Virus record (IMG/VR): IMGVR_UViG_3300043467_000250
Coordinates: 1 to 64,000 of that record
Strand: one strand, 5' to 3'
Source of the DNA: a virus
DNA length: 64,000 bases
Below the pieces are notes generated by a model. It was not told the DNA's origin, did not search any database, and was given only the letters and a program-made list of their open reading frames with translations. A program made the translations under genes and the position numbers. Below are positions 16,187 through 33,912 of this stretch, in pieces. Position 1 is the first letter of the stretch. The number at the start of each line of letters is the position of its first letter.

Positions 16187-16191
16187 AAAGA

Positions 16192-16511: not shown

Positions 16512-16512
16512 C

Positions 16513-16911: not shown

Positions 16912-16919
16912 TCCCCCTG

Positions 16920-16927
16920 TATAAATA
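16920..16927 (+). promoter_or_regulatory. late promoter TATAAATA
   Basis: Exact T4 late consensus between two genes. It is only 8 bases before the ATG at 16936 but 26 bases before the in-frame ATG at 16954, close to the 25-27 base gap at the other late promoters. So either the message has almost no leader or translation starts at 16954. Confidence 0.75.
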
Positions 16928-16935
16928 TTTTCACT

Positions 16936-18095: not shown

Positions 18096-18393
18096 TCCCT
18101 TGTTCAAACCTCCGCGCCATCTTGTAAAAGAATGGCCGGAGGTTTTTGAAGATCTCTACATGAATACCATGCCGGTAGCCTATCTGGATTCAGTACGACT
18201 GGATTTTATAGATGGCAGAGTATGGGAAATCGATGTAAAAAATGAATTGACTAAACAAACTTCCGAAAGCATCGCTGACGTATTGCTTAACACACTCCAA
18301 GAATACAAGGATGAAATCAAAAAGATCGATTTTAAAGTTGATGTGACCCGCTTGAAAACTGATATTGCCAGCGAAACTAATAAATTGTTCTAG
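18088..18393 (+). CDS. conserved protein of unknown function
   Basis: 101 residues: PNPLFKPPRHLVKEWPEVFEDL at the start, then a strand pair (LDSVRLDFIDGRVWEIDV) and two amphipathic helices. Appears to be a phage-type conserved protein, role unknown. It begins in the end of the previous gene. It is the last of the closely packed + strand genes of this type before the accessory methyltransferase. Confidence 0.7.
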   Translation: MPNPLFKPPRHLVKEWPEVFEDLYMNTMPVAYLDSVRLDFIDGRVWEIDVKNELTKQTSESIADVLLNTLQEYKDEIKKIDFKVDVTRLKTDIASETNKLF

Positions 18394-18406
18394 ATGATTA
18401 AAAGCA

Positions 18407-19072
18407 TTGTTAGATTTACTTATGTATAGAGTCGATGATTCATCTGTAGAAAAAGAAGTAATAGAGATTTTAACATCTCGACCAATGTCGTTGATGCCCA
18501 TGAATAAGTTAACACCTATTATCAAAGCAATCAATGATTATAAGTTAACACAAATATTAGAAATTGGAACATTTGCAGGCGGCACTACATATATACTAGC
18601 AAAAGAATTCCCAAGCAATTCAATAACAACCGTTGACCCTAGCAACTTTGAAGAATACTTCGCAATGAAAGGTCTCTCAGATCATTTAATGCACCTACGA
18701 TCGAAGTATCCCGAACTTATGTTAGAGCCCGCATCTTTTAGACATATTCAAAAATTGTATAAAAAAGAGTGCGATAATATTACGTTAATTACAGATGTAG
18801 TGCATAATGTTGATATTTCTCAAATGAGTTGTATAATACTCGATGGTAGCCATAAGGACGAAGTTTTAAAAACTGACTTAGAATATTGTTATGCGAACAT
18901 GAAGCCCGGTATTATATTTGTCGACGATTGTATGTATGAACATATTAACAAGTGTGCCAACAGATTTGCCAAAGAACATCATTTAGAATTAGTCTATTTT
19001 AATATCGAACACAACGGACTCTGGAAACTTGATCTATGTGCAATAATAACAAATCCATTAATTAAATTATAG
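18407..19072 (+). CDS. class I SAM-dependent methyltransferase
   Basis: 221 residues. ILEIGTFAGGTTYILAKEFP is the SAM-binding motif I, followed by TTVDPSNF as motif II. CIILDGSHKDEVLKTDLEY and PGIIFVDDCMYE follow, which is the pattern of the Methyltransf_24 type (O-methyltransferases of sugars and small molecules). Start uncertain: TTG 18407 or ATG 18422, with no clear ribosome site for either. It ends 22 bases from the convergent end of the radical SAM block, so it may belong to that accessory block. The substrate is unknown; it does not look like a DNA methylase. Confidence 0.8.
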   Translation: MLDLLMYRVDDSSVEKEVIEILTSRPMSLMPMNKLTPIIKAINDYKLTQILEIGTFAGGTTYILAKEFPSNSITTVDPSNFEEYFAMKGLSDHLMHLRSKYPELMLEPASFRHIQKLYKKECDNITLITDVVHNVDISQMSCIILDGSHKDEVLKTDLEYCYANMKPGIIFVDDCMYEHINKCANRFAKEHHLELVYFNIEHNGLWKLDLCAIITNPLIKL

Positions 19073-19094
19073 CAGAACAATTTCTCTATTCTGG

Positions 19095-19937
19095 TTAGTT
19101 GATAATAACATGCTCTTTGTAAAGCTGTTCGGCGAAAGATTTATGAGCATCCTCATTTAAATGTCCATGTGGTAATGTAGTTTTTTCCGTTTTAAAATCG
19201 TATAAACAACAATCTGTAGTTGCAAATAGTTGAGAATTATGTAATTGATTTATTATTTTGTTAAAAAATAAAGCATTCTCAAGTGACGCTACCCGATATG
19301 TGCCGTAAGCGTGTGTGCTGGGCCAAAGACATAATTCTTCACGAATTTGTTCCATAGGGATCACAAACAATCTGCCATTTATTTTCTGTTTTATTGATTC
19401 GAATACTTTTAAATCTCTATAATAATTCCACAAGAGTCTATCGTCTGTGAAATATTTTGTTATATGTTCTGATAGTTCGACTTTGTACGATTCGATATTT
19501 GAAAGTAAAAACGGCACAGGTTCTGGATAGGTACTAGAGAAAAACATAGATCGCTGGGTTCCGGTTGTTCCGACCAAAATTAAATCGTCATCGGTAATTT
19601 CTCCCGAATTTAATTTTTGTTCTATCTGCCAACACATGAGTTCATTACTATTACCAGGCTTTGCATAATTTATAAAGTTCACACCCAAGTAAGAAGCTAG
19701 ATGTGCCGGCCAAGAATGGTTGGGTTCTTGTTTTCGAATTTCTAGCTGTAGCTTCATCTGATCTGGATCTTTTTTAAGTTTTTCCCACCACTGATACGCA
19801 TCTAATTTATTTTTTAAATCTACAAAATAGGGATTTAATTGATAATCTAGTATTTCGGTCCCGGCTGTAAAACTGCAACCGAATGCTACGATTCTTTTTA
19901 CATTAAATGTATTTTCTTTGATAGTAAGTTTTACCAT
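19095..19937 (-). CDS. SGNH-hydrolase-like protein
   Basis: 280 residues. IVAFGCSFTAG (17-27) has the block I Ser of GDSL/SGNH esterases in the form GCSFT. YAKPGNSNELM carries the Gly/Asn of blocks II-III, and GHLNEDAHKSFAEQL near the C terminus offers the Asp and His of block V. SGNH enzymes remove or transfer acyl groups on sugars and lipids. No signal peptide, so it acts in the cytoplasm. Last gene of the accessory operon; its ATG overlaps the stop of the upstream radical SAM gene (ATGGTAA). Confidence 0.7.
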   Translation of the reverse strand: MVKLTIKENTFNVKRIVAFGCSFTAGTEILDYQLNPYFVDLKNKLDAYQWWEKLKKDPDQMKLQLEIRKQEPNHSWPAHLASYLGVNFINYAKPGNSNELMCWQIEQKLNSGEITDDDLILVGTTGTQRSMFFSSTYPEPVPFLLSNIESYKVELSEHITKYFTDDRLLWNYYRDLKVFESIKQKINGRLFVIPMEQIREELCLWPSTHAYGTYRVASLENALFFNKIINQLHNSQLFATTDCCLYDFKTEKTTLPHGHLNEDAHKSFAEQLYKEHVIIN

Positions 19938-21130
19938 GTGTTTACCTTGAATTGTTTTGCGTATTCTATAAAATGAGGTTTGATTTTGAATAAATTTTGA
20001 TTACGTATCATATCATAGTTTTTTTGCATTTTAAAAAATTCGACCACCCTTTTAGAGTCCACATTTTTAGATTTATCTATTGCTTCCTTAATCATATTTA
20101 ATAATTCATCTGCTCGATGCAACGATGTATTTCTATACTTTTGTAATTTGCTGTGTGACTCTTCCAAAACATGCAAGGGTGTTATGTCAAGCTCATTGAA
20201 TTGAACTACCGGAATAAAATAAAAGCTGAGTTTATTATCTGATAGTTCATGCATGCTATCAATAAGTTGGTCTAAGTTATCAACATTTAAATTTTGCACA
20301 GTGGTGGCTATTCCAGGTAGTATATTCTTATTCTGTTTAGAATAATCAATTACAAGGTTTATATTTTTATGTAATTTAGCCCAATTTCCAGGCCACCTTA
20401 TATACTCATAAGTATCACCATGGCCGTCTATACTGATGCTTAAATCTATATTTCTAAATTTTTCCCATACTTCTAATTTACGTTCAGCATCAATTTGTAG
20501 GTTTGTATTGTAATGCAAGATTAAATTTTTTGATCTACCGTTCGCAATGAGCAGTTCAACAATCTCATCGTGAAATTCAGATACCAGTGGTTCTCCTCCC
20601 AACATGTATATTTCTGTTAAGTTAACAGATTTGTTGATTGTGTCAAGTATTTTGTCTTTGGTAGATCTATCAAATTCGATGATTTCCTTGTGACCCTGTG
20701 ATTTATTAATGATATTCCATTGTTTGGCAACTAAAGAACTGCTATAAGGACTGCACATTCGACAGGCGAGATTACATTTATTTCCTAGTGTAATATCAAG
20801 ATACTGTATATTTTCAAAACCTATGTGACTTTTAAATTCAATCGTCTTGTTATTTTTTATTCCATAAGATTGATTTTCATTTGCTACGTGTCTAAAACTA
20901 GGATTCCCGATAGCCTCCATGTTCCAGCATCGATCACAGTTACTAGGCTTTTGTCCATTTAAAAAATCCTGTCTTAGTTCTACAATTTTTTTATTATTAA
21001 TGAATTCTTCAGGAGTTAAATCCTTGGCATATAATTTGAATCCATTGGTTCCACTGCTACAACAAGCTCTAAATTGCCCGACTGCATCTATGCTTATGCT
21101 ATTAAAAGGTAAGACACATAAATTATTCAT
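19931..21130 (-). CDS. radical SAM protein with N-terminal twitch/SPASM-like cysteines
   Basis: 399 residues from ATG 21130, chosen because it overlaps the upstream stop (ATGAATAA); a longer form from 21190 would overlap by 68 bases. The radical SAM cluster motif is CNLACRMC (C119, C123, C126) and LGGEP (177-181) binds SAM. Before the barrel lie C5, C23/C24 and NCDRCW (C65, C68), an arrangement like a twitch domain for a second cluster but placed N-terminal. The substrate is unknown. Closest in layout to the protein at 22358-23560. Confidence 0.85.
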   Translation of the reverse strand: MNNLCVLPFNSISIDAVGQFRACCSSGTNGFKLYAKDLTPEEFINNKKIVELRQDFLNGQKPSNCDRCWNMEAIGNPSFRHVANENQSYGIKNNKTIEFKSHIGFENIQYLDITLGNKCNLACRMCSPYSSSLVAKQWNIINKSQGHKEIIEFDRSTKDKILDTINKSVNLTEIYMLGGEPLVSEFHDEIVELLIANGRSKNLILHYNTNLQIDAERKLEVWEKFRNIDLSISIDGHGDTYEYIRWPGNWAKLHKNINLVIDYSKQNKNILPGIATTVQNLNVDNLDQLIDSMHELSDNKLSFYFIPVVQFNELDITPLHVLEESHSKLQKYRNTSLHRADELLNMIKEAIDKSKNVDSKRVVEFFKMQKNYDMIRNQNLFKIKPHFIEYAKQFKVNTW

Positions 21131-22349
21131 TGTTTTCCTTGATAATGTATGAATCTTTTTTGTTTCCAAGTTCTCCAAAATCGAGACCATTAAATTCTAC
21201 ACCACAGCATTGTCCGCATTTCGCTGGACGCATTGAAGTATTACCATTTTCGTTATCCCACGTGTCGGGAATCCATTTCTGGAAAATATCTAATTGCAGT
21301 ATGTCGTAGATATCGTTGATATGCATATTAAGTCTATGTAGTCCACCTTGAGCATTAATCATACTGATATAATTTTCGTCTCGGTCTTTAACTTTGGTAT
21401 CTATCATAGGCTCGGAACCTAAAAAACAACAAGGAGCAACATGTCCTCCTGCACTTACAAATATTTCATTGTGCGGTTGATGCATTCTAGCATCTTTGAC
21501 TGCGCGGCACGCTATGTTAAGTGAATCTAGATCAATAGTTTCCCATTTTCCATTTACAAATCTCATGTCCCCATTCTTGATACCTACCATATTTTTAAAA
21601 TCATTCAGCGTGATACTTTGATATTTGCTCTGCTTGAAGTATTGCGAATCTTCAAAGTTGTGTTTGAATTTATCTTCATTGGGTTGTTTAAGATCATACA
21701 AGTGTATGCCTTTGGAATAAACAGGATATGACCCAACACCGTCTTTGTATTTTGCCCAACGGGTAGTTCTTTTAACGTTAAAGTTCTTAAAGCCCATAGA
21801 ACGTGCTAGTTCTCTAGCTTCCTCAACTTGATGTTCATTGTGCTCAAATACAATAAAATCCCAATGAGCAACACCGCCAGCATCAATAAATGCTTTGGCG
21901 TTTTCCATGATTTTTTTCCAGTTGGTATTTCGACGATAAAGATGATTTGTGTCTTCAAGTCCATCTAGACTAAACGTACAGTAGTTACCTAGATTTTGAT
22001 CTTCACGCATCACAGCCCCTAACCGACTCCACCATGCTGGATTTCTAAGGCTACCGTTAGTGTTACAGGCAAGCCCCATGCCTGGATTGATTTCTCTGCA
22101 GTATTCATATATGTCTACAAATTCTCTACAGGCGCAAGGATCACCAAAGTTACCACAAGCAAGTATCTTTTGCAATTGCGATAAAAATTTTACAGACCAT
22201 GCTTTTTTAAAACTTTCTAAAGTCCATTCTTTATTTTCTAATGTGCTTATCTCAAAACCTTTTGAATCATATCTTGGACACATAGAACATCCACTGTTAC
22301 ATTTGTCTGTTGGTTCCCAATGAACCTGTGTTACTGCATCATTCCACAT
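21123..22349 (-). CDS. radical SAM protein with C-terminal SPASM-like cysteines
   Basis: 408 residues. CNSGCSMC (C17, C21, C24) begins the barrel almost at the N terminus. The usual GGEP is replaced by GNFGDPC. The C-terminal third has SPASM-like cysteines: a Cys in NIACRAVKD, then GGHVAPCCFLG, then KCGQCCGVE, enough for one or two extra clusters. This is the common plan of peptide- or sugar-modifying SPASM enzymes and differs from the four other radical SAM proteins of the operon. Eight bases separate it from the upstream gene. Confidence 0.88.
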   Translation of the reverse strand: MWNDAVTQVHWEPTDKCNSGCSMCPRYDSKGFEISTLENKEWTLESFKKAWSVKFLSQLQKILACGNFGDPCACREFVDIYEYCREINPGMGLACNTNGSLRNPAWWSRLGAVMREDQNLGNYCTFSLDGLEDTNHLYRRNTNWKKIMENAKAFIDAGGVAHWDFIVFEHNEHQVEEARELARSMGFKNFNVKRTTRWAKYKDGVGSYPVYSKGIHLYDLKQPNEDKFKHNFEDSQYFKQSKYQSITLNDFKNMVGIKNGDMRFVNGKWETIDLDSLNIACRAVKDARMHQPHNEIFVSAGGHVAPCCFLGSEPMIDTKVKDRDENYISMINAQGGLHRLNMHINDIYDILQLDIFQKWIPDTWDNENGNTSMRPAKCGQCCGVEFNGLDFGELGNKKDSYIIKENNE

Positions 22350-22357
22350 ATTATATC

Positions 22358-23560
22358 CTATAAGTATTTTTTAATTTCGTTGAAATATTCAGGAAAGATC
22401 TCTTTGAAAGATTCTTTTCTTATTGTATCTCGCTTTTCGAGTTCTGCCCAAAAATTAATCCAGTCTGATTCAAAAAATTCTGTGTTAGATAGGTATTGTA
22501 TAACCATATTTCTATCATTGTTCCACTGTTGTGGCAGATATTTAGATTCAGATGCATTGAGTCTATTAATTATTGATTGTTTTAATTCACAAGGCAACAC
22601 TTTGATACTATGATGATCGTGCACCATATTAACATATATACCGATGCCCTTGCTGGCATAATGCTCAAATGTTTCAAAAAAATCATATACATTAAATGCT
22701 GAAACAGAAATACAAGCAGATAGCAACCATTCAGTTTTGCTATTATTTTTTGCAGAAATAAACTTATCAATATTTTCTTCTACTTCTTCCCAAACAGCTG
22801 GATGACGGCAATATTCAAATTTCTTACCGACACCATCACTGCTGATTTGTATATCCACAAGTCTAAACTCTTCTAGCAATGACATATATTTCTCTGGGTA
22901 GATAGTGCCATTAGTGTTATAATGAATGTGTTGTTTTTTACTCCACCCTTCCTCAACGCATTTGTTTACAATACTCCAGTGTTTTTCGATATAAAAAGGT
23001 TCGCCTCCGGCAAAATCAAATTTAGTTACATTGGGCAATAATGCAGTAATATCATCCCACAGAAATTTATTTTCGTAATCAAAACTATCTTTAACAGTTT
23101 GCCACCTCGGTTGTTTTAAATATGCTTGTTTATTATTTGGAAAATGTATACTAGCTTCTTCAATCATCCAAGGAGTAGAGTGTGTTGGGCTACATATCCT
23201 ACATTTTATATTGCATAGATTTCCCATACTTAGGTCTACAACTACTGGTAACATGTCACTATCAGTAATAATACTTGCATACGTTTTATTGTCTCTAATT
23301 CGTTTGCTTTCCTTGCCGGCTTCCTCTTCTTGCCAGCAAAATGTGCATTCCGGTATTTTAACCCCGTTATTAAGATTGCTAATCATTTGTTGACGATCTT
23401 TACTATTCCAAAACTCCAAAATACTAGCATTATTAATGGTAGTCTTCCCTGAGTCAGTAACCAATTCTCGAGTACTCATGCAGCATGTTTTAACTATGCC
23501 TTTAGGATGAATACTTAGATTCATGTATGGATTCACACAGTAAGTGGATTTATTTGTCAT
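22358..23560 (-). CDS. radical SAM protein with N-terminal twitch/SPASM-like cysteines
   Basis: 400 residues. CNIKCRIC (C116, C120, C123) is the SAM cluster site and AGGEP (184-188) the SAM-binding motif. Upstream C8, C26/C27 and ECTFCW (C72, C75) form a second putative cluster region. The sequence after the SAM cysteines (SPTHSTPW) matches the SP-x-S/T-S of the other members. It overlaps the upstream radical SAM gene by 11 bases. Confidence 0.87.
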   Translation of the reverse strand: MTNKSTYCVNPYMNLSIHPKGIVKTCCMSTRELVTDSGKTTINNASILEFWNSKDRQQMISNLNNGVKIPECTFCWQEEEAGKESKRIRDNKTYASIITDSDMLPVVVDLSMGNLCNIKCRICSPTHSTPWMIEEASIHFPNNKQAYLKQPRWQTVKDSFDYENKFLWDDITALLPNVTKFDFAGGEPFYIEKHWSIVNKCVEEGWSKKQHIHYNTNGTIYPEKYMSLLEEFRLVDIQISSDGVGKKFEYCRHPAVWEEVEENIDKFISAKNNSKTEWLLSACISVSAFNVYDFFETFEHYASKGIGIYVNMVHDHHSIKVLPCELKQSIINRLNASESKYLPQQWNNDRNMVIQYLSNTEFFESDWINFWAELEKRDTIRKESFKEIFPEYFNEIKKYL

Positions 23561-24908
23561 AATTTTCGTAAATTTGTTTGCACAGATTATAAAATTCTGT
23601 GTATTCTGGAAATGTCTTTAGTAAATCTGTACCTAGACGTTTGTCATTTTCTTTAAAAAAACTATAAAAGTCTCTTCTGCCAGCATGAATCTTTTCTTTG
23701 CTTACCGGATTCTCTTTCATATAGTCTGTAACACGAAGCATTTTTTCATATTCGACGTCGGTGAACCATTTTTTATTGTCTACAATAAATTGTAATTGAC
23801 GTTCTTGATGTGCTATAAAATCATCTGTGAGAATGTTAATCATCCAATGTGGTGGTTCTTTCAAGTACGGTGTATCAAAAGACACTGACTCAAATCCAAA
23901 CTTCTCGCGCCATTCGATTACCTTTTCTAATAGTTGTTGAAAGTTAGTAACGCACAAGACATTATAGGTACACATCAAATTTACAGTAGCACCTGCCTTG
24001 ATTACTTCTATCATATTGCGTTCCCAGTGATCACATTTAAGTCCTGTACGCATATATTCTGCTTGCTCGCCCCAACTATCAATGCTTGTAAAGAAACTAA
24101 ATTTACGGATCTTCTTTTGACGAACAAGACTAGTTACTCTTTGAATAAGTCTGTCAACACGATCAAAGGTTACACCTAGATTACTGTTTAATGTAATTTC
24201 TAAATGAGGACTTGGTTCTGTTTCTAGCAAATCAAAAAACTGCATAGCCCCTGGATTCATTAGAGGTTCGCCGCCAGTAATACGCAGAGTATGTAAGTCA
24301 TTTTTTAAACTTGGCCACCATTTCCAGAATGCTTCAATGTAGGGATTTTCGTCTTTAGGACCGTAGTATGTTCCGTTGGTCATAAACTCAATGCCATACT
24401 GATTATAGGTTAGATCGTAATTGCCATGCTTCTTGATTTCTTCTGTCCACATGGTGCTTGCTTGTGGGCAGCAATAACCGCAACGATAATTACATCCGTT
24501 ACCAAAACTCACTTCTAAGTAACGAGGATTAACCGGAGCATCCCAAGGTAATTCTGCTAGTTTTTCAATCAGTGGTTCGCTGAAATCACTGGAACTATGT
24601 ATCATTCTGTCACTGATATGCTCGCCTGGTAGATCTTCAATATTCCAACAATATTGGCATTCGTTAGGGCGACCGCCTTCTAACATGGTTTTACGCTGTT
24701 CTTTTTTCCATTTTGTATTGTGTAATGCACTAGGATCTGCTGCAATTTCATCTAAACCAATATGATGTGGGCGCGGATGATAGCAACTGTGATTATCACC
24801 GGTGTGTAGATACAGAGTTTGGTGCAACCACTTCATTGCACAGAATCCCGTACCGACTTTGTTTAATCTATCTCTTACGTTTTTAATATATTGTAATTTA
24901 TGACTCAT
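23550..24908 (-). CDS. radical SAM protein, CYHP/ECQYCW type
   Basis: 452 residues. SAM cluster CNYRCGYC (C139, C143, C146) and TGGEP (211-215). The N-terminal part has FCAMKW (C23), SCYHPRPH (C42), ALHNTKWKKEQRK and ECQYCW (C84, C87). These blocks are nearly the same in the protein at 25575-27008, so the two are paralogues. The C-terminal 150 residues are helical, with 'FYSFFKENDKRLGTDLLKTFPEY' shared in form with the paralogue. It overlaps both neighbours by 11 bases. Function unknown; a two-cluster radical enzyme is likely. Confidence 0.87.
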   Translation of the reverse strand: MSHKLQYIKNVRDRLNKVGTGFCAMKWLHQTLYLHTGDNHSCYHPRPHHIGLDEIAADPSALHNTKWKKEQRKTMLEGGRPNECQYCWNIEDLPGEHISDRMIHSSSDFSEPLIEKLAELPWDAPVNPRYLEVSFGNGCNYRCGYCCPQASTMWTEEIKKHGNYDLTYNQYGIEFMTNGTYYGPKDENPYIEAFWKWWPSLKNDLHTLRITGGEPLMNPGAMQFFDLLETEPSPHLEITLNSNLGVTFDRVDRLIQRVTSLVRQKKIRKFSFFTSIDSWGEQAEYMRTGLKCDHWERNMIEVIKAGATVNLMCTYNVLCVTNFQQLLEKVIEWREKFGFESVSFDTPYLKEPPHWMINILTDDFIAHQERQLQFIVDNKKWFTDVEYEKMLRVTDYMKENPVSKEKIHAGRRDFYSFFKENDKRLGTDLLKTFPEYTEFYNLCKQIYENYDK

Positions 24909-25578
24909 TATGTAACCTGTTTTTTAAATTAATTTGACCTGCTAGTCTATGATGAAAAACATCATCTACTATTTTAAATAGTTCGTCGTGCAATTTTTGG
25001 TTAGCCATATGATTAGGTCTCATATCTTTAGAGGCAAACTCAAGCAGTTTTTCTTCTGTGTTTAAATATTTTTTTGGTATTTCTATTCTAGAGAAATATA
25101 TCAGAGCTGGCCTAACTTCGTTTTCAAATGTGTGCGAATAAACTAAGCTATCCTCGGATACAAATTTAGTAGATACCCAATTGCTCGAATCACCGTATCC
25201 GGAAGGGAAAGCCCAGAAAAACAACATGCGGATCTTTCGTTCTTTAACAACCGCTTCGATCTTATCCAAATACATATCAGACTGCATTTCAAGAAGACGT
25301 TGATTATAAAAGTGTTTATGATACAACTGGTGAATTTCTTGTGTCTTCTTAGAATCTTTCTGATAATATCTTTGATTCTCAGACCAACAAAAAACAACTA
25401 AATCGTCAGGTGTTATACGGTCTAAGTCTTCCATGAATCTTAAAAATATATAATGATTGCTTGCACCTGCAATTGATCGATTTATTAGTTGATGTTTTCC
25501 ATGTAATTGATCAATCCACGAAGTGCATCTCACTTCACTAGACATGCTAAAACTATCACCGTATATGAAAATCGTCAT
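24898..25578 (-). CDS. SGNH-hydrolase-like protein
   Basis: 226 residues from ATG 25578, chosen since it forms ATGA with the upstream stop; the frame is open to 25614. FIYGDSFSMS (4-13) is the GDS block with S9 as likely nucleophile. SIAGASNHYIFLR supplies the Gly and Asn blocks, and SKDMRPNHMANQ the Asp-x-x-x-x-His end. No signal peptide. It sits between two radical SAM paralogues, so both probably act on the same material, perhaps adding or removing an acyl group. Confidence 0.72.
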   Translation of the reverse strand: MTIFIYGDSFSMSSEVRCTSWIDQLHGKHQLINRSIAGASNHYIFLRFMEDLDRITPDDLVVFCWSENQRYYQKDSKKTQEIHQLYHKHFYNQRLLEMQSDMYLDKIEAVVKERKIRMLFFWAFPSGYGDSSNWVSTKFVSEDSLVYSHTFENEVRPALIYFSRIEIPKKYLNTEEKLLEFASKDMRPNHMANQKLHDELFKIVDDVFHHRLAGQINLKNRLHNES

Positions 25579-27008
25579 TGCTTGTGTATTGCTTTCTTGC
25601 ATTTTACCTCGCATTCTTTCCAGAAATTTTCTAACTCTGGAAAAGTATTTAAAAAATTTGTATCTCTACGTGCATCATGCTGGCTAAAGAACAAATAAAA
25701 ATTTTCCATCGCCAGCTCACGATTAAAACCTGTATCCGATTTAATCCAATCAATTAAACGCTGAACCTTACTAATTTCAAAATCACTAAATCCTTTAAAT
25801 TCGTTCCAGCGTGTTTCAGGATTGTATTTCATAAATTCTATAGTGCGTTCTAATTCACTAACCATTTCTGGTAATAATTTAGGATTTAAAAAATCAGGAT
25901 CTAATAACTGTGGAACATCAAACCAAACTAATTGACGTCCTTTGTTATATTGTTTTCTAAGTTTTAAAATATTTTCTATGTAAGAATAAAATCCTGTATA
26001 ACTTAATGCGGTAAAAGTTATAATAAATGTTAAACTGTGTTTATCACTATTTTGCAAATAATCACATACATTATTATACAGTAGATTAAAATCCATACCG
26101 TTGCGAATATATTCTGCTTGATTACCCCAAGAGTCTAAACTACAATACAACATAAAATGATCAATTGCATCTACATCTGTAATCTCTTTAAGACTAGTCA
26201 TAAATTTAGCCCACTGATCACCCGGCGGACAACAGTTACTAGTAATACTTAGATGCAGATCTTCTTTAGGATGTTCTTTAACATAGTCAAACATACGGAA
26301 CGTGTTCTTATCCATCAATGGCTCACCGCCAGTCATACGGAATGTATGTAGTGTTGGATATATCTGTGGCAACCATTCCCAGAACGCTAGCAAGTAAGGA
26401 TTGTTTGGCCCGTTATCTATGTTAAGACTCTTCATCCAATTAATATCATTGTGCCAACGATCTTTTAAAATAAACGCACCGTTATGTTGAATATCGTTGT
26501 GCCATGCTGTACTTAGATGAGGGCTGCAATAACTACATTTAAAATTACAGGCTTGATTAAAATTTACTTCAACGTAGCGTGGATTAGGATTTTCTACTAA
26601 CTGTGCTTCTTCTATTAAACCGTGTTCGTAAACATCTTTACTTCGATATGCACGATCACTTAACTGCGTACCACTATCTTCTATCTGCCAACAAAATTCA
26701 CATTCTTTAGGACGTTCTCCAGCTAACATTAATTTGCGTTGTTCTTTTTTATATTTTGTATTATGTAATGCACTAACATCAATTCGAACTTCTTCTAAAG
26801 GAACTTGATGTGTCCTAGGATGATAACAACTATGTGTTTTTCCCGTAGGAATGTGTAGACTAACATTATACCATTTAGCAAGACAAAAGCTCGGACTAAC
26901 TTTGTTTAGTTCTTTATACACGTAGTCAGCATCAGCAAGATATCGAGATTCATATCTACCGTTAATCTCTTTAAGTTCGTTGCCTTTTATATTACGATTG
27001 TATTCCAC
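25575..27008 (-). CDS. radical SAM protein, CYHP/ECEFCW type
   Basis: 477 residues. SAM cluster CNFKCSYC (C154, C158, C161), TGGEP (226-230). N-terminal cysteines C42 (FCLAKW), C61 (SCYHPRTH), C103 and C106 (ECEFCW) with SALHNTKYKKEQRK between, as in the paralogue at 23550-24908. The end YLFFSQHDARRDTNFLNTFPEL also matches it. Possibly a two-cluster radical enzyme. It overlaps the upstream repeat-glycosyltransferase gene by 17 bases. Confidence 0.88.
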   Translation of the reverse strand: MEYNRNIKGNELKEINGRYESRYLADADYVYKELNKVSPSFCLAKWYNVSLHIPTGKTHSCYHPRTHQVPLEEVRIDVSALHNTKYKKEQRKLMLAGERPKECEFCWQIEDSGTQLSDRAYRSKDVYEHGLIEEAQLVENPNPRYVEVNFNQACNFKCSYCSPHLSTAWHNDIQHNGAFILKDRWHNDINWMKSLNIDNGPNNPYLLAFWEWLPQIYPTLHTFRMTGGEPLMDKNTFRMFDYVKEHPKEDLHLSITSNCCPPGDQWAKFMTSLKEITDVDAIDHFMLYCSLDSWGNQAEYIRNGMDFNLLYNNVCDYLQNSDKHSLTFIITFTALSYTGFYSYIENILKLRKQYNKGRQLVWFDVPQLLDPDFLNPKLLPEMVSELERTIEFMKYNPETRWNEFKGFSDFEISKVQRLIDWIKSDTGFNRELAMENFYLFFSQHDARRDTNFLNTFPELENFWKECEVKCKKAIHKQ

Positions 27009-29301
27009 TGAACTGTTCCTTTAACCAATCAAAGTCATTAATTTTCTTAAGGGCCTCTGGATTGTTTTTGTTAGTTTCGCCGTATTCTCTACCTGCCTGA
27101 GCACCTTTAATTGCATATTTGCCAAATAGTTTATCAACACCAACTGAGCACCATACATCTAAACGATGTGTAGTTTCTTCCTCGTATTGTCTTTCGATTA
27201 CACGACTAGCTAGTTTACAACATTCTCTAAATGCTGATCTCCATGTAGCAAATTCATCTGTGTTAAATGAATTCGTGTTAGACACAGTATTCATAGCTTT
27301 AAATTTTTTCGATATGCTAGTGGTCATATCGGGCGAATTAACATCAACAGATATTGTTAATTGTCTTGGTAATAACTTAACACCTCCGTTGCCGTATTCT
27401 AGATTGTTAATAGGATTGCGGCTTTTCCAAACATGAACACAGTCTATGTCGTAACTACTCATAACTAAATTAAAATTAAAATCATTTTCGACAATAGCAT
27501 CACCGTCAACGATCCATATCATGTCAGTATTGCACATTTTAGCTGCTTGTATATGCGCCTGGTGAATTCCTTTAACTCCGTGAATACGTTTTGCTCTTGG
27601 ACACATTTCTAATAACTTGTTACAGTTTTCATCGGCATTGGGTTCGTTATAAGAAATAAAAACAACATCATATAAAGAATGTTTAGATACTAATCTATCA
27701 TGTTCTTTTTTCTCAATTAAAAATCTGTGTTTAAATTCTCTTTGACCAATTATTTTATCTTTAGACAATAACACTACACCGTTAACAAAAATTTCTTTTT
27801 CATTGAATAAGTGTTTAAATGTATGATTTTCTTTTCGATCGTGTTCGTATTTTCCGTCATTGGGATCAAAATATAAATCAAATATCGATTCGTCGATAAT
27901 ATCTATTTCGGGCCAGATTCCCCAAAATAGTGGTTGGGTTTCTTTTTTAACAATGTCGGTATACTCGTCATATGACGATAACACATATCTATTATATCTG
28001 TAACGGCTTACAACTTCTGCATGTTCTTTTTTATCTATTAAATATCTTCTATTAAATTCTTTCTGTGAAATAACTTGTGTTGTTGAAAACAATACTAATC
28101 CACAAAGATAAGTTTCTTTATCGTTACACAAATTTTTAAACATATGATTTGTTTTTCTATCTTGATCGTATTTTCCGTCATTGGGATCAAAATATAAATC
28201 AAAAACAGAATTATCTGTAACAGCTATTTCGGGCCAGATACCCCAGAATAAAGGTTGAGTTTCTGTTTCTATAATTTGTTTATATTCTTCGTAACTGGAA
28301 ATATTGTATCGATTATATCTATACCTACTAACTATGCGGGTATGTTCTTTTTTGTCAATTAAATATTTTCTATCAAATTCTTTCTTAGAAATAATTTTAG
28401 ATTTAGAAAATAAAACAACTCCGCTTAGATATGATTCTTTATCATTGCATAAATTTTTAAATACATGATTTTCTTGCCTATCATAATCTAATGCACCATT
28501 GTTAGGATCAAGATAAAAATCAAATATTGTATCGTCAATAATTTCTATACTAGGCCACTGACACCAAAACATTTGTTGTTTTTCATTGTCAATAATCTCT
28601 AAATAATCAGCATAAGAATTAATTTTATAAACTGGGTATTGATATTTGCTGACAACTTTGTTGTGCTCTTTTTTATCTACAGCATACTGTTTATCAAACT
28701 CTCGATTTGATAAAGGTTTATATTTGCTGCAAAGGATTACTCCGCTGAGATAAGATTCAACACTATTGCAGAGATTTTTAAATACATGATTTTCTCTGCG
28801 GTCATAACTATTATGATGACTAAAATATATGTCAAAAATTGATTTGTCAGTTACAGTAACTTCTGGCCATACTAGCCAAAACATGTCGTCGGTTATGTGT
28901 TGGTATTCGTTGAATGTATTAGGACTGTATGTTTTATATTGTTTTGGAATACTAGCAACAATATCAATTTCTTTTTTAGCTGTAAAAAATCTATGATGAA
29001 ATTCACGCTGAGAAATCGTCAACGATTTAGGAAACAAACAAATACCATCATAGTGTTCTCCGTTTTTAAAAACGTGAACATACATGTCATCCCACTTAGT
29101 GGCTTTATAATCTAATAAATTAAATTCTGTAAGATTTATATCGTCCCAGATTACCCAGAACATTTTTGTAAAAGATTTAGATCGAATTTCTTCGTAAGAC
29201 TTTATGTTTGTTAATTTTTGAGCAAGGGGATACCTAGACTTTATTGCATTCCAATCTTTAGTATTTCCTTCGCCTTTTGAAACATAAAAAATATCATACA
29301 T
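26992..29301 (-). CDS. repeat protein fused to GT-A glycosyltransferase domain
   Basis: 769 residues. Residues 1-535 hold five tandem copies of a unit of about 107 residues: 'SYxEY', then MFWxIWPEI, FDxYFDPND, NHxFKNLCNDKE, a hydrophobic strand, and EFxRxYLIDKKEH. Copies 4 and 5 are most alike. From about 540 comes a glycosyltransferase-like domain: VVFISYNEPNAD, RAKRIHGVKG, and IVDGDA as a DxD-type metal site. This domain is close to the whole protein at 29294-30211. The repeats may bind glycan or give multivalency; that is inference. It overlaps neighbours at both ends. Confidence 0.8.
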   Translation of the reverse strand: MYDIFYVSKGEGNTKDWNAIKSRYPLAQKLTNIKSYEEIRSKSFTKMFWVIWDDINLTEFNLLDYKATKWDDMYVHVFKNGEHYDGICLFPKSLTISQREFHHRFFTAKKEIDIVASIPKQYKTYSPNTFNEYQHITDDMFWLVWPEVTVTDKSIFDIYFSHHNSYDRRENHVFKNLCNSVESYLSGVILCSKYKPLSNREFDKQYAVDKKEHNKVVSKYQYPVYKINSYADYLEIIDNEKQQMFWCQWPSIEIIDDTIFDFYLDPNNGALDYDRQENHVFKNLCNDKESYLSGVVLFSKSKIISKKEFDRKYLIDKKEHTRIVSRYRYNRYNISSYEEYKQIIETETQPLFWGIWPEIAVTDNSVFDLYFDPNDGKYDQDRKTNHMFKNLCNDKETYLCGLVLFSTTQVISQKEFNRRYLIDKKEHAEVVSRYRYNRYVLSSYDEYTDIVKKETQPLFWGIWPEIDIIDESIFDLYFDPNDGKYEHDRKENHTFKHLFNEKEIFVNGVVLLSKDKIIGQREFKHRFLIEKKEHDRLVSKHSLYDVVFISYNEPNADENCNKLLEMCPRAKRIHGVKGIHQAHIQAAKMCNTDMIWIVDGDAIVENDFNFNLVMSSYDIDCVHVWKSRNPINNLEYGNGGVKLLPRQLTISVDVNSPDMTTSISKKFKAMNTVSNTNSFNTDEFATWRSAFRECCKLASRVIERQYEEETTHRLDVWCSVGVDKLFGKYAIKGAQAGREYGETNKNNPEALKKINDFDWLKEQFSGIQS
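27690..29301 (-). repeat. five tandem coding repeats of about 320 bases
   Basis: The DNA of copies 4 and 5 remains partly identical: 27845-27882 and 28166-28203 are the same over 38 bases at an offset of 321 (107 codons). Earlier copies (3, 2, 1, toward 29301) diverge step by step. The pattern suggests duplication from the 3' side and ongoing unequal exchange. Confidence 0.75.
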
Positions 29302-30211
29302 TGGCTGGCACCGGCATCTTAAAATAAGTGTCGTTGAGATTCATGGTTTCATTATACAAATCTAAAGTAAATTTACTTTGCTGCGCATCAAGAAACGGCC
29401 AATCTAATCCCAAACTCATTTTTATTTTTTCGCCTAAATTTTTAATCTCATCTACTAGACCATCACCGTTTACATCTTCATACGGTTTACCGTATTGATT
29501 CCATATATCTCTGAGTATTTCAAAATCTCGAACATCGACATAATTCCACTGTGTGCAATTAGCCATCCATGTTCCTAATCTAGCACCATATACTGCATAA
29601 ATTCCGTTTTCTTCGTGAGCACCCACAGTTGACCACATGCGCAGTCTATGGATATTGTGCCACCATATGCGTTCTTTAATTTCCATAGGAGGAACTTTGA
29701 CCCCGTCTAGCAAAGTCATCTTAACACCTTCACGGAATCCTGCTCTCCATGCTTGGAATGGTGATCCTGTGATAACGCTTTCACTGAACGTCAATGGAAA
29801 ATTTCTATACCCATCTTCCCAACAAAAGTCTACTTGGCCGCGATCACTGTTGGAGTTTTCATGCGTTTTCATGTTAAGAACAAAATCTTTACGCCAGATT
29901 TTCAATCCACCGTTGCCATATCGAAGACCATTAATTGCATTGCGGCCGCACCAACCATAGACCTGTATCTTGGGATCACTCATGTCAAGGTCGATATTAA
30001 AAAATCTAGGATCTACAATATTATCAGCATCAACAGTGATAAACCAATCTGTTTCACTGGCTTCTGCTGCGGCTTTATGGGCGTGGTCTGATCCTTTGAC
30101 TCCGTGAATACGTTTAGCCCAAGGTACTTTATTACACAAGTCAGCATAATGCAGATCTGCGTTAGGTTCGTCGTAACTTAAAAAAACTACATCAAATTCA
30201 ATTACTTTCAT
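29294..30211 (-). CDS. GT-A-like glycosyltransferase
   Basis: 305 residues. DVVFLSYDEPNADLHY (7-22), AKRIHGVKGSDHAHKAAAEA, and FITVDADNIVDPRF with DAD at 61-63 make a GT-A nucleotide-sugar site. Downstream RYGNGGLKIWRKDFVL and TGSPFQAWRAGFREG are shared in form with the C-terminal domain of the neighbouring repeat protein. A short insert reads DVNGDGLVDEIK, like a calcium-binding dockerin/EF loop. The acceptor is unknown. It overlaps the upstream gene by four bases. Confidence 0.8.
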   Translation of the reverse strand: MKVIEFDVVFLSYDEPNADLHYADLCNKVPWAKRIHGVKGSDHAHKAAAEASETDWFITVDADNIVDPRFFNIDLDMSDPKIQVYGWCGRNAINGLRYGNGGLKIWRKDFVLNMKTHENSNSDRGQVDFCWEDGYRNFPLTFSESVITGSPFQAWRAGFREGVKMTLLDGVKVPPMEIKERIWWHNIHRLRMWSTVGAHEENGIYAVYGARLGTWMANCTQWNYVDVRDFEILRDIWNQYGKPYEDVNGDGLVDEIKNLGEKIKMSLGLDWPFLDAQQSKFTLDLYNETMNLNDTYFKMPVPANV

Positions 30212-30825
30212 TTATATTCAATCACATAATTTTTAAATAGGCGTCTTGTATACACACTAAACTTATCATAGTCAATATTTTTAATTGTTACATTATGCCC
30301 TATTAGTTCATTTAGTTTAACAGAAAACATCTGAAAAATCAAGTTGGGATCGTTGTAATCTGTGATTAAAAAATCCAGATCGGTGCTACCATCCCAAATA
30401 AATTTTCTTGTTCCGTCGTTGCCTTTGTATTTTTTGGTTCCGCCGTATTCTGTAGACAGTTGAATTTTCAAATATTTGTTTTTTGAATTATATGTTATAT
30501 GTATATCCGATTCAATTTGATCTGAATATTTGATATCAGGAATTCTATGCAACACATCATCTAATTTGTTTAGTGTCTTTTTTTCAGCTATGTCTAACTG
30601 TCCTGACTCTACATTTATTTGACAGTTGTGTATCTGTATTTCAGCTGTGATTATGGATTCAGCAATTTCTTGTGATATCTGCACTATATGTTTTTGATCT
30701 GCAAAAGCATGATCTGGCCCCACGCTGATAACTTGACCCGTATTTGGATCAAACACCGCTACATACTGTGTAATTGGTGGCTTGTATTCTCTCAGCCATT
30801 TATCAAAATCTTCTATAGTTTCCAT
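30208..30825 (-). CDS. operon protein of unknown function
   Basis: 205 residues, soluble. N-terminal part ITQYVAVFDPNTGQVISVGPDHA looks like a beta hairpin of the sort found in fibre or chaperone proteins. HIVQISQEIAESIITAEIQIHNCQI and a helix follow. The C-terminal half is strand-rich (DIHITYNSKNKYLKIQLS, STDLDFLITDYNDPNLIFQMF). No enzyme motif seen. As a non-enzymatic member of the operon it could be an acceptor or a fibre chaperone; this is speculation. Confidence 0.7.
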   Translation of the reverse strand: METIEDFDKWLREYKPPITQYVAVFDPNTGQVISVGPDHAFADQKHIVQISQEIAESIITAEIQIHNCQINVESGQLDIAEKKTLNKLDDVLHRIPDIKYSDQIESDIHITYNSKNKYLKIQLSTEYGGTKKYKGNDGTRKFIWDGSTDLDFLITDYNDPNLIFQMFSVKLNELIGHNVTIKNIDYDKFSVYTRRLFKNYVIEYK

Positions 30826-31652
30826 GCTTTAGTCTCCAAGATATGTATACACTCATTTGTGATTAAATTTTTCTCTACGTAATGCACAATATCATTCTGT
30901 TGAAAATTTCCTATCTTTAGTCTAGCGTCTGCATTAAGATAAAATCCCACATGATCGCTCCAAGTATCAGCCGGCCATGGCCATTTTTGCAGCATTGGTT
31001 TCATATGCACTACTCGAGGAAATGGTAAATCGTAGGCAATGTCGTCAGTGATGTCTAGTATGTTAGCAGCCAATGCGAATGCTTCATCTGTGCCAATTAC
31101 CTTAGGCCTGTGTTCACTTAAAAACTGATTGGCGAATTCGCGGGGATTTTTTATAATCTGTCGACCTAATTCAAAAAATTCTTGGCATAGCACAGATCCT
31201 TTAGAGAAAAAAGTCCACATGGAGTATAAATCCGGCAGACAATTTCTGTCAAAGGTTTTTCTATATGTGCGATCTGTGATTGTTTCGCCTCTATAGGTAT
31301 AGACCTGATTGGCCACATACAATTCGCTGTTGGCAATAAAATAATCAATCCAATGACTGTAATCTCGTAGGAATAACATATCAGCATCAAGGCATACTGT
31401 GTGATCAAACGGAGACAGTTGGTCCATCCATGATCTGCCATCCCAATATTTCTCTTGGTCCCATTCGATCACTGTGTCAAACACCCACGGACTTGATAAT
31501 TTTGCAAGTGATTCTTTGTTGTCAATTACCAGTGCCACCCTGTCATACCCTGGTTTTTGAGTGGTTTTTATACTCAAAGCTAGAGCATAGGCGCACTTGA
31601 GATAATCAATGTCATCATAGTGTGCTACAAACAACAGATATCCAAAGTTCAT
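30813..31652 (-). CDS. GT-A-like glycosyltransferase (GT8-like)
   Basis: 279 residues. YLLFVAHYDDIDYLKCAYALALSI is the typical start of nucleotide-sugar transferases of the GT8 plan. TVCLDADMLFLRDY carries the DxD metal site (DAD 89-91), and IGTDEAFALAANI the later acidic motif. Similar in layout to the next gene upstream (31649-32509), so a paralogue pair. No membrane segment. The acceptor is unknown. Confidence 0.78.
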   Translation of the reverse strand: MNFGYLLFVAHYDDIDYLKCAYALALSIKTTQKPGYDRVALVIDNKESLAKLSSPWVFDTVIEWDQEKYWDGRSWMDQLSPFDHTVCLDADMLFLRDYSHWIDYFIANSELYVANQVYTYRGETITDRTYRKTFDRNCLPDLYSMWTFFSKGSVLCQEFFELGRQIIKNPREFANQFLSEHRPKVIGTDEAFALAANILDITDDIAYDLPFPRVVHMKPMLQKWPWPADTWSDHVGFYLNADARLKIGNFQQNDIVHYVEKNLITNECIHILETKAWKL

Positions 31653-32509
31653 ATCAACTCCATTAACTGTTGTCGATGTCTCAATATACTTTGTTTATTC
31701 ATCACATGTATATCAACTCCAGTCACAGATGCTGCACAATATGTGGCATCTAATCGATGATCAATCAAGAATGTTAATTTGTCTTTGTCGACAGCAGTGA
31801 GTATGTCTTTGTCCATGACTGATAACACGGGTGGGAGTGTTGGTGTGTGCATGTTCTCAAATCCATCTAGCATGTGTTTGGCAACACTAAACGCTATGTC
31901 ATTTCGATATTGTCTGTGATCGAATCGGAAGACATCAGCATAGTGCTTGTAATTTTCTTTGACTAAATTCACAGTATCAAAAAACAGTTTAGATTGTGGA
32001 TTTTTCGTGAACATCACTGTGGTTGCCCAATACATTTTACAGCTGGTTTCACAGACATATCTATCAAGGTAGCCTAATCTTTCTTCACTGTAGATATCGT
32101 TGATCGAATCACCTATCATTACGTCAGCTTCCACATTCCAATATTTGTTTAGATTATCACTGAATATCAAAAAATCGCTGTCTATCAGTAGCGTTCTATC
32201 GTAGGGTGTGAGGTCCCATACAGAGTGTCTATTGGTATTACAAAATGGTATTTTTTTATTGATTACACCGTCGTGTAATCCACGTTGATTATCTGTGACA
32301 GGTTTATCTACAATTATCACATGCTCGAATACTGTTTCAACCTGCTGCCATGTATGTGATTCAATCAACCATTCCTTGGTGCTGAGATCTGTGACCAATG
32401 AAACTGGAACATTAAGATGTTTTTTTGCAAGACCGCCGCTGATCACTGCTAATAATCCATAATCTACTTCACGATTATTGTGTGCGAAAATTAAAATGCC
32501 ATTGGTCAT
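31649..32509 (-). CDS. GT-A-like glycosyltransferase (GT8-like)
   Basis: 286 residues. GILIFAHNNREVDYGLLAVISGG at the start, RTLLIDSDFLIFSDNL with DSD (110-112) as the metal site, and FRYDH-like 'RFDHRQYRNDIAFSVAKHML' as the later motif. Same general plan as the downstream neighbour. It overlaps both neighbours by four bases. It probably transfers a sugar to an unknown acceptor. Confidence 0.78.
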   Translation of the reverse strand: MTNGILIFAHNNREVDYGLLAVISGGLAKKHLNVPVSLVTDLSTKEWLIESHTWQQVETVFEHVIIVDKPVTDNQRGLHDGVINKKIPFCNTNRHSVWDLTPYDRTLLIDSDFLIFSDNLNKYWNVEADVMIGDSINDIYSEERLGYLDRYVCETSCKMYWATTVMFTKNPQSKLFFDTVNLVKENYKHYADVFRFDHRQYRNDIAFSVAKHMLDGFENMHTPTLPPVLSVMDKDILTAVDKDKLTFLIDHRLDATYCAASVTGVDIHVMNKQSILRHRQQLMELI

Positions 32510-32856
32510 TGTGTGATAAGTTTTTCTACAGATCTAGATTTCTTGATTTTATCAAATTCTTGAAAGTATTCATTAGTGACTTCGAAATATCTGCTGAAGA
32601 TTTCATCACGAAAAGCTTCTAGATTTTCTATCAATATGGGATTTTCATTGACGTCTAACAGCACCGTTCCAGAAACTCTGCCTTTGCTACACAGCATTTC
32701 AACAAATGTCAACAGATTTCTATCAATGGCAAACAGCCCGCCGGAGAAACCGTACATCAGTTTGGCAGCTGTGCGTTCTTTGAGAATTTTTTTGTGGATT
32801 GAAAAAGTCTGCTGATAATTGGCAAAATCCAATACAGCTTTTAACTGTGCGTTCAT
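32506..32856 (-). CDS. first gene of the late accessory operon, unknown function
   Basis: 116 residues, helical: FANYQQTFSIHKKILKERTAAKLMYGF, then GGLFAIDRNLLTFVEMLCSKG, a strand pair VLLDVNENPILIENLEAF, and a closing basic helix KKSRSVEKLI. I associate this type with T4-like marine phages, where it seems to lie near structural genes. It is the gene nearest the late promoter at 32884-32891, with AAGGAGAACTC just before its ATG. Confidence 0.75.
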   Translation of the reverse strand: MNAQLKAVLDFANYQQTFSIHKKILKERTAAKLMYGFSGGLFAIDRNLLTFVEMLCSKGRVSGTVLLDVNENPILIENLEAFRDEIFSRYFEVTNEYFQEFDKIKKSRSVEKLITQ

Positions 32857-32883
32857 GAGTTCTCCTTGATAAACTGCGTAGTT

Positions 32884-32891
32884 TATTTATA
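32884..32891 (-). promoter_or_regulatory. late promoter TATAAATA driving the radical SAM operon
   Basis: The - strand reads TATAAATA, an exact T4 late consensus, 27 bases before the ATG at 32856. It lies in the only real gap (59 bases) between the fibre genes and the accessory block, so the whole block of thirteen genes is probably expressed late. Confidence 0.82.
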
Positions 32892-32915
32892 GAGAACTAT
32901 GTGGTGTGAAATAAA

Positions 32916-33896: not shown

Positions 33897-33912
33897 GAGA
33901 ATATTTAAGAGA

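Follow-up and report, generated by a model that had tools for sequence, protein, structure and literature searches.

The thirteen minus-strand genes at 19095-32856 are best read as a late, fibre-linked system that builds and tailors a glycan and carries an exchangeable end, a tentative reading to which we give a little less than an even chance. It draws on a conserved gene order, a promoter-like element, glycosyltransferases of GT-A and GT8-like type, radical SAM enzymes and the independent exchange of the end.

Organization and products of the operon

All thirteen overlapping open reading frames (G1-G13) are found in the 64-kb window, that is, the whole stretch of DNA analysed, where an earlier note on this DNA had placed them. 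With the longest starts, the junctions from G1/G2 to G12/G13 are overlaps of 7 and 68 nt, a gap of 8 nt, and overlaps of 11, 11, 40, 17, 8, 4, 13, 4 and 4 nt. A G2 start at 21130, preceded by AGGAAAACA, reduces the 68-nt overlap to 8 nt, and a G6 start at 25602, preceded by GAGG, reduces that of 40 nt to 28 nt; because both large overlaps shrink in this way, the range of 4-17 bases proposed earlier is nearly right with these alternative starts, whereas the longest starts give 68 and 40. Since junctions either overlap or leave 8 nt, there is no room among G1-G13 for a separate precursor-peptide gene; a precursor peptide elsewhere, or in an overlapping frame, would still be compatible with the layout. 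With a maximum 19-residue mean hydropathy of 1.34, G1-G13 are predicted to lack a strong membrane segment. A convergent methyltransferase-like gene lies at 18407..19072 on the plus strand (PF13578, 29.1 bits), and a protein about 30% identical to it (f50) is encoded in line inside the cassette of the relative L021. QueE-like and GTP cyclohydrolase-like genes lie elsewhere in the window, on the other strand.

The exact late-promoter-like motif claimed ahead of the operon is present before G13 (TATAAATA, 32884..32891, minus strand). Of 69 distinct upstream sequences from relatives, 64 have TAAATA in the corresponding place, between -45 and -22 relative to the start of G13, against a shuffle mean of 3.0 and a maximum of 9; the exact TATAAATA occurs in 19 of 68. 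What exceeds chance is the position of TAAATA upstream of G13 rather than the copy number of TATAAATA, which was rejected as a window-enriched motif, having 3 copies, fewer than the 6.6 expected by chance.

The CxxxCxxC motif is present in G2, G3, G4, G5 and G7, the five genes for which it had been claimed. Four of them, all on the minus strand, belong to the N-twitch radical SAM family (N_Twi_rSAM, NCBIfam NF033640), whose curated cut-off of 170 bits they exceed with 285.5-307.5 bits: G2 (19931..21130 with the chosen start, longest frame to 21190; 288.5 bits), G4 (22358..23560; 285.5 bits, and SPASM at 26.7 bits), G5 (23550..24908; 294.7 bits) and G7 (25575..27008; 307.5 bits, with CNFKCSYC and CEFCW). 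G3 (21123..22349, minus strand), which shares the exchangeable end with G4, falls below this cut-off at 37.1 bits and is a radical SAM protein by PF04055 (40.6 bits; cut-off 29.5); its C-terminal cysteines appear SPASM-like by eye. PF04055 also recognizes G2 (40.8 bits), G4 (30.4) and G5 (30.5), and gives G7 21.9 bits, under its cut-off, yet G7 is over that of NF033640. Peptide maturases are among the NCBIfam models that G2-G4 match below cut-off.

The two proteins described earlier as SGNH-like keep that name with a qualification, because their Pfam calls are weak: G1 (19095..19937, minus strand) reaches 19.0 bits for Lipase_GDSL against a cut-off of 23.6, and G6 (24898..25602 with the chosen start, longest frame to 25614; minus strand) has no Pfam match. 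In G1 the GxS motif and two His are conserved, being invariant in ten relatives, with a block III that contains no Asn; its matches to GDSL proteins of the PDB are weak (E 0.03-1). In relatives, G6 may be present or absent between G7 and G5.

The remaining six genes, also on the minus strand, include four predicted glycosyltransferases, G8, G9, G11 and G12, each with a DxD-type motif, in agreement with the earlier count. The motif alone is not diagnostic, since a loose DxD pattern also matches G4, G7 and F1. G12 (31649..32509, DSD) and G11 (30813..31652, DAD) have no Pfam match; they appear GT8-like, with profile matches to glycogenin at E=0.0094 and to glycogenin-1 at E=1.2e-4, respectively, and G12 aligns to G11 in hhalign with 99.45. 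G9 (29294..30211, DAD) is homologous to the C-terminal part of G8 (26992..29301), which consists of five repeats of about 107 aa and a C-terminal domain of GT-A-type fold with DGD (model pLDDT 88.8). The model of this domain matches B4GALNT1 (Z 11.3, rmsd 2.6, 135 aligned); IspD cytidylyltransferases match it equally well (Z about 10-11), so that the fold is no proof of glycosyltransferase activity. G13 (32506..32856, 116 aa) lies between F1 and G12 and is present in all sufficiently long loci retrieved with G9 or F1 as bait, and G10 (30208..30825) encodes 205 aa and is about as variable as F1.

Fibre neighbours, conservation and exchange

F1 (32916-33896) and F2 (33913-34815), on the minus strand, form the end of the fibre cluster ahead of the operon. 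Both are homologues of gp360 of phage PA5oct, which matches the F1/F2 profile at E=3.5e-41, F2 at E=7e-20 and F1 at E=1.5e-5, and which carries an ESI-MS/MS note in its record (NC_071039.1). The giant neighbouring protein matches gp355, F7 matches gp357, and F3-F6 share domains with gp358/gp359; the order corresponds to that of these PA5oct proteins, which bear ESI-MS/MS notes. Ser and Thr make up 23.5% of the F1/F2 family on average (42 members), and gp360 has 22.2% although PA5oct is without the module. No PDB structure matches the fold of F1 convincingly (the best, VIA, has Z 7.6 and rmsd 3.2 over 113), which does not imply a new fold; against BFVD, F1 has three matches, to function-less entries.

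The gene set recurs as a unit, with conserved order and co-occurrence, rather than as genes that almost never meet, the outcome the earlier note had named as a refutation. With G9 as bait, F1-G13-G12-G11-G10 lie upstream in 42 of 42 loci with enough sequence, many near-identical. In 41 of 41 that extend far enough downstream, G8 is followed by radical SAM genes, on its own strand in 37 and, within about 1.7 kb of it, convergent in 4. These last four were considered as exceptions lacking radical SAM genes and dismissed, as the other strand carries them. With F1 as bait, again with many near-identical contigs, the loci long enough contain G13 (54/54), G12 (53/53), G11 (51/51), G10 (51/51), G9/G8-type (45/45) and G7-type genes (35/35).

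The proposal of one block is supported in part, as a linked modification system beside fibres with a late-type promoter element; within it, however, the loci appear from sequence comparison to behave as three parts, namely F1 with G13-G9, G8-G7, and a swappable end that includes G4-G3. Over 48 loci, distances of F1 correlate with those of G13-G9 (rho 0.38-0.58) and weakly with those of G8 and G7 (0.15 and 0.11, permutation p 0.018 and 0.010), and G8 correlates with G7 (0.46); over 18 loci, G4 correlates with G3 (0.86) and either with F1 at about 0. Zero lies inside all seven bootstrap intervals of the gene-pair differences tested, and physical linkage may account for the block signal. A hint from 18 loci of closer coevolution of F1 with G10 and G9 than with the genes nearer to it was not upheld by the 48 loci and the bootstrap. 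In L021 the F1 and G9-G13 proteins are identical and the G4-G3 end is replaced, and in 4 of 41 locus groups (L061, L065, L067, L070) the radical SAM quartet occurs without F1 or G9-G13 over the 4-10 kb of upstream sequence covered. In or beside the variable end, relatives encode sugar-type enzymes (PF02543/PF16861; PF08421/PF13489/PF08484), and their B12-type protein f26 matches RiPP C-methyltransferase models below cut-off.

At the limits used, tblastn of 50,697 phage records found no match to the window's G8, F1, G13 and G9, nor to a divergent G12 (L087) and G9 (L060); G3, G5, G7 and G4 gave weak matches (19-24% identity) in 4, 2, 18 and 26 records, and a divergent F1 gave 11 Pseudomonas records. 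Assignment of a host from MAG bins was rejected because the bins that contain F1-G9 operons bear the names Betaproteobacteria, Rickettsiales, Pelagibacter and Rhodobacteraceae, and one with a radical SAM stretch of phage type is named Flavobacteriales.

A proposed glycan-building and glycan-tailoring system and its rivals

In the mechanism that we propose, the four glycosyltransferases, assisted by G13 and G10, would assemble a glycan on an acceptor in the cytoplasm, F1/F2 or a neighbouring protein of the fibre cluster being the likeliest candidate. G7 would be the partner of the repeat-bearing G8, and the remaining radical SAM and SGNH-like proteins, joined in relatives by carbamoyltransferase and C-methyltransferase enzymes, would tailor the sugars by oxidation, epimerisation, C-methylation, acyl transfer or removal, or carbamoylation. 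Swapping the end would alter the outer chemistry and keep the fibre and the core glycan. A more specific form, which we regard as possible and on balance doubtful, is modular decoration of the virion, with a fibre glycan made in the host cytoplasm, an exchangeable radical SAM/SGNH tailoring set that would vary the chemistry displayed by phages whose fibres are identical, and a glycosyltransferase and radical SAM core shared with predatory Bdellovibrionota, in one genome together with the fibre gene.

The main rival, itself rather unlikely in our estimate, is a late remodelling of the host surface glycan, for instance against superinfection or re-adsorption of released virions: the enzymes would act on O-chain or capsule precursors, and the linkage to fibres would reflect co-selection with receptor specificity. 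Such a role has been suggested for the glycosyltransferases of the pelagimyophage host recognition cluster in the part of that paper available (PMC7029224), and the rival is strengthened by the glycosyltransferase and radical SAM pairs on Bdellovibrionota contigs, where a G9/G8-like glycosyltransferase is at most three genes away from a radical SAM gene in 10 of the 15 loci inspected and several (L322, L325, L329) lie, by eye, among GT2-like and mutase-like genes. Nevertheless, flippase, polymerase, ligase and lipid-anchor families were not found in the operon with Pfam and NCBIfam, the products seem to lack a strong membrane segment, and the operon, with its late-promoter-like element, directly follows F1 in phage loci of sufficient length. 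Alternatively, the radical SAM proteins could modify polypeptide, that is, side chains or backbone of the fibres, as SPASM maturases do, with the glycosyltransferases acting on the modified residues. We think this improbable: the maturases among the matches of G2-G4, the Ser/Thr-rich F1/F2 family and the f26 matches are in its favour, but gp360 is nearly as Ser/Thr-rich without the module, sugar-type enzymes also enter the variable end, and a classic RiPP cluster was set aside for the operon itself because its junctions leave no room for a precursor gene.

Hypermodification of phage DNA with glycosylated bases, or a role in host metabolism, would make the fibre neighbourhood incidental. Phage glycosyltransferases that glycosylate DNA are mentioned in the available part of PMC12619734, and in that of PMC2853527 the authors on phage CP220 suggested that its radical SAM genes have a role in metabolism. 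The operon is, however, late-promoter-like and fibre-linked, the QueE-like and cyclohydrolase-like genes that could speak for this explanation are encoded apart from it, and no thymidylate synthase family was found in the 10 records searched, which are possibly fragments; we judge it very improbable.

Comparison with known systems

Published descriptions of radical SAM cassettes in phages go back to 2010 (PMC2853527), and those of pelagimyophages lie near fibre and glycosyltransferase genes in the host recognition cluster (PMC7029224), their function being undemonstrated in the parts of both papers available. The earlier view that the operon is not a standard phage module is, in view of these cassettes, partly right; the unit described here was not found in the literature searched. 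In the Campylobacter phages CP220 and CPt10, five radical SAM genes are likewise clustered with GT-like genes and exchanged between near-identical phages, according to the accessible text of PMC2853527, and the G3 profile matches three of the CP220 radical SAM proteins (E 1e-14 to 1e-19). CP220 differs in that the 24.5-kb stretch of it searched has no match to F1, G9-G13 or the N-twitch proteins at the thresholds used, weak G2/G4 matches of gp084 being the only exception, and in having a possible amidinotransferase, none of which is found among G1-G13 by Pfam. A homologue of this CP220 enzyme (gp086) lies in a second island of a 281-kb relative, outside the operon. Pelagibacter phage Mosig also combines fibres, glycosyltransferases and radical SAM cassettes, and has a G3-like protein, an f33-like protein of SGNH type and an annotated carbamoyltransferase; its 24.5-kb stretch searched has no F1 or G9-G13 match, and the pelagimyophage cluster is described as a variable, non-syntenic island in the portion of PMC7029224 seen.

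PA5oct and Paride (Arenbergviridae) share the giant protein, gp357, the fibres and gp360 in corresponding order, but opposite-strand genes directly follow gp360, and neither whole record contains PF04055 or a G12-like glycosyltransferase; the F1 homologue can thus do without the system. When the Paride stretch was searched in six frames with the profiles, one weak G5/G7 match came up (E=0.0013, 11 bits) and was taken as chance. Beside a conserved unit linked to a protein of virion type, these module-free phages are natural comparators for mass spectrometry, and if virion glycans swap independently of fibres, a second, chemical layer would be added to adsorption and phage recognition.

Bdellovibrionota chromosomes share the N-twitch radical SAM proteins (31 of 114 genomes) and the G9/G8-like glycosyltransferases (20 of 368), the latter without F1 in all genomes but one, a pattern that would suit a surface glycan equally well. 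The genes are, however, dispersed or in large clusters, and F1 and G12 are almost absent (1 of 368). A 140-kb Bdellovibrionota contig (L316) encodes F1-G13-G12-G11-163 aa-G9 with radical SAM genes, beside pheST-like genes. Its chromosomal F1 homologue has, by eye, no signal-like start; the mosaic adhesive trimer fibres of Bdellovibrio are described, in the part of PMC10769870 available, with a signal peptide and a conserved N-terminal beta domain. If modular decoration is true, these phages and predatory Bdellovibrionota would both tailor surface or adhesin glycans with radical SAM enzymes, and the sharing offers a way to learn what a large orphan family of radical SAM proteins does.

Gene order and late-type element of the operon

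The thirteen overlapping minus-strand reading frames described in the earlier note were found again at 19095-32856 (G1-G13, with G13 first and G1 last in transcription order), nearly all junctions overlapping, in a virus record of 71,247 bases. Window positions 15001-34908 are 99.99% identical across 19,908 bases to locus L016, which was cut from a contig of 281,658 bases (G001), and the DNA polymerase is nearest to those of the jumbo myophages Phosso (50%) and Atu_ph07 (47%). Four of the radical SAM proteins, G2, G4, G5 and G7, belong to the N-twitch type (NCBIfam model NF033640, 285.5-307.5 bits against a cut-off of 170); G3 is a radical SAM protein by PF04055 and not N-twitch. An alignment of 92 relatives of G5 and G7 has eight conserved cysteine columns: four N-terminal to CxxxCxxC, the three of the motif, and one near the end.

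The same gene set occurs as a unit in other phages, a check that the earlier note had put forward: the gene maps of relatives have a conserved order, with gains and losses, of fibres, F1/F2, G13, G12, G11, G10, G9, G8, G7, (G6), G5, G4, G3 and a variable end. These maps came from a scan of viral contigs with G5 (best 80 of 281 relatives, 41 groups); as G5 itself had selected these loci, the scan was repeated with the glycosyltransferase-like G9 as bait. Among the best 80 of at least 597 G9 loci, F1/F2-type genes, G13, G12, G11 and G10 were all present in the 42 of 42 loci with at least 4.5 kb upstream, and a same-strand G7/G5-type radical SAM gene was present in 37 of the 41 with at least 5 kb downstream. 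The remaining four have convergent radical SAM genes, which adjoin G8 in three loci and in L136 lie about 1.7 kb off, behind an SGNH-type gene. With F1 as bait, which reaches close relatives only (55 loci), those long enough contained G13 (54/54), G12 (53/53), G11 and G10 (51/51 each), G9/G8-type (45/45) and G7-type genes (35/35). These counts are not independent, since many contigs are near-identical or fall in more than one set. A G3 scan (28 loci) gave more loci of the same kind; two of its loci, L220 and L221, have glycosyltransferase genes on the opposite strand.

Of 69 distinct sequences upstream of G13, 64 have TAAATA 22-45 nt before its start codon, against a mean of 3.0 and a maximum of 9 after shuffling; TATAAATA is the T4-type late promoter. 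In 17 of these 64 the element is flanked by an inverted repeat with arms of 6 bp or more (shuffle mean 1.6, maximum 5); this region, 32870-32905 in the window, differs among relatives in the sequence of the arms.

Glycosyltransferase-like proteins and the exchangeable end

Glycogenin, a GT8 enzyme, is matched by G11 and more weakly by G12, and the two match each other (hhalign 99.45). G8 (26992-29301, minus strand) has five repeats of about 107 aa N-terminal to a GT-A-type domain. In its structure model (pLDDT 88.8) this C-terminal domain aligns with B4GALNT1 (Z 11.3, rmsd 2.6, 135 residues), IspD nucleotidyltransferases tying. By eye, the repeats resemble the DxD-bearing half of a glycosyltransferase with FWxxW in place of DxD, and look like halves that lost this motif. 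G8 relatives range from about 230 to 1084 aa in steps of about 107 aa, with from none to at least seven copies, by FWxxW counts, ahead of the glycosyltransferase domain.

The operon unit appears, on sequence comparison, to consist of three parts, with G4-G3 within the variable end. Locus L021 is 94% identical in DNA to window 25590-35584, and its proteins are identical for F3 (part), F2, F1 and G13-G9, 91% for G8, 83% for G7 and 94% for G5; G6 is absent from it, and window 18393-23567 has no DNA match there, being replaced by SGNH-type f49, relatives of G4 and G3 (about 30%), f21, f29 and f30, together with one methyltransferase-like gene (f50) and one gene for a B12-type radical SAM protein (f26). 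In the 18 loci that contain the full set of eleven genes, distances for G4 correlate with those for G3 (0.86), and neither correlates with those for F1-G9 (-0.10 to 0.03). In 48 dereplicated loci, F1 distances correlate with those of G13-G9 (0.38-0.58), G8 (0.15, permutation p 0.018) and G7 (0.11, p 0.010), and G8 with G7 (0.46). On bootstrapping, however, each of the seven differences compared between gene pairs spans zero, and linkage alone could therefore explain much of the pattern.

An operon was scored complete if an opposite-strand gene comes next, as in 30 of 45 mapped loci (two groups giving two loci each). These 30 have two (3 loci), three (6), four (13), five (7) or six (1) radical SAM genes, and 20 contain at least one gene grouped as SGNH-type. 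The variable end of L070 includes a family-tested carbamoyltransferase; beside that of L060 and L055, on the opposite strand, are a C-methyltransferase (L060 copy family-tested) and, by eye, an epimerase-like gene. The G7-G5-G4-G3 quartet also stands without F1 or G9-G13 in the available 4-10 kb upstream (L061, L065, L067, L070).

Related genes elsewhere in phages and bacteria

Contig G001 has 19 PF04055 matches: five in the operon, the QueE-like protein, and a further 13 that form a second island between 230 and 262 kb (L288, L289). The island also encodes SGNH-type, epimerase/dehydratase (PF01370), 2OG-oxygenase (PF13640) and B12-type radical SAM proteins, and homologues of a Mosig methyltransferase and of a possible amidinotransferase of CP220 (29.6% over 358, E=1.8e-49, without Pfam match). 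The radical SAM genes of Vibrio K566, Campylobacter CP220 and Pelagibacter Mosig have, by eye, neighbours whose proteins contain DxD-like motifs. In the window, a GTP cyclohydrolase-like gene (8731-9477, plus strand) and the QueE-like gene (13201-14055, plus strand) suggest a deazaguanine pathway separate from the G1-G13 block; a tRNA-Glu(ttc) is predicted at 11118-11193 (minus strand), antisense to plus-strand reading frames.

Outside phages, the G5/G7 scan gave 24 genome loci, 16 of them under Bdellovibrionota-type names; of the rest, five lie in bins with other names (four F1-G9 operons and a stretch of phage-type radical SAM genes), and three are others. With up to 14 candidates scored per genome, NF033640 was found in 31 of 114 genomes from the phylum of a Bdellovibrionia MAG, itself counted, and in 1 of 118 from the phylum of a Flavobacteriales MAG, namely the Flavobacteriales MAG itself. 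At E 1e-10 the Bdellovibrionia MAG gives 25 matches, of which 19 exceed the cut-off, and large chromosomal N-twitch clusters were seen in genome G011 (L292, L293) and other Bdellovibrionota genomes. G9/G8-like glycosyltransferases occur in 20 of 368 genomes; in 10 of 15 loci, one each from 15 of the 20 (L294 and L317 being apparently one locus in two genomes), a radical SAM gene lies within three genes of them. F1 and G12 were each found in a single genome of the 368, the same one (L316). This locus has F1-G13-G12-G11-163 aa-G9 and radical SAM genes near a contig end, beside pheS/pheT-like genes (named by eye); the F1, G13, G12, G11 and G9 copies are 29-51% identical to the best phage copies, F1 lacks a signal-like start (by eye), and TAAATA is absent from the 70 nt upstream of G13.

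The fibre cluster and the proposed acceptor

We take the block to be a glycan system whose tailoring end is exchangeable. An acceptor on the virion is favoured by the linkage to F1, the soluble enzymes and the late-type element; modification of the host surface is a strong rival. In L071 and L074 an F1-like domain lies within proteins of 714 and 709 aa respectively, the former also with an Ig-type domain, and both loci have a G8-like protein; the neighbour of the L071 protein (L071:3382-4518) weakly matches a Hint module, at 21.3 bits against a cut-off of 29.7.

The fibre genes F1 (32916-33896) and F2 (33913-34815), both on the minus strand, lie upstream of G13. At 26-29% identity and E values from 3e-5 to 5e-4, a divergent F1 (L060) matches 11 Pseudomonas jumbo phage records, including PA5oct, MIJ3 and Paride. 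The PA5oct homologue, gp360 (F1/F2 profile E=3.5e-41), is last in the cluster gp355-gp357-gp358-gp359-gp360, whose members are annotated 'ESI-MS/MS' in the record. The part of the giant virion protein gp355 that was compared matches the window's 4605-aa protein (43413-57230, minus strand; FG-GAP and CBM5/12 matches), gp357 matches F7 (40%), and gp358 and gp359 have domains common to F3-F6. In PA5oct and Paride, opposite-strand genes start immediately beyond gp360, and neither PF04055 nor G12-like matches were found in their whole records. These phages have the F1 homologue without a radical SAM or G12-like match; the operon therefore looks like an addition behind the last gene of a cluster of virion fibre genes.
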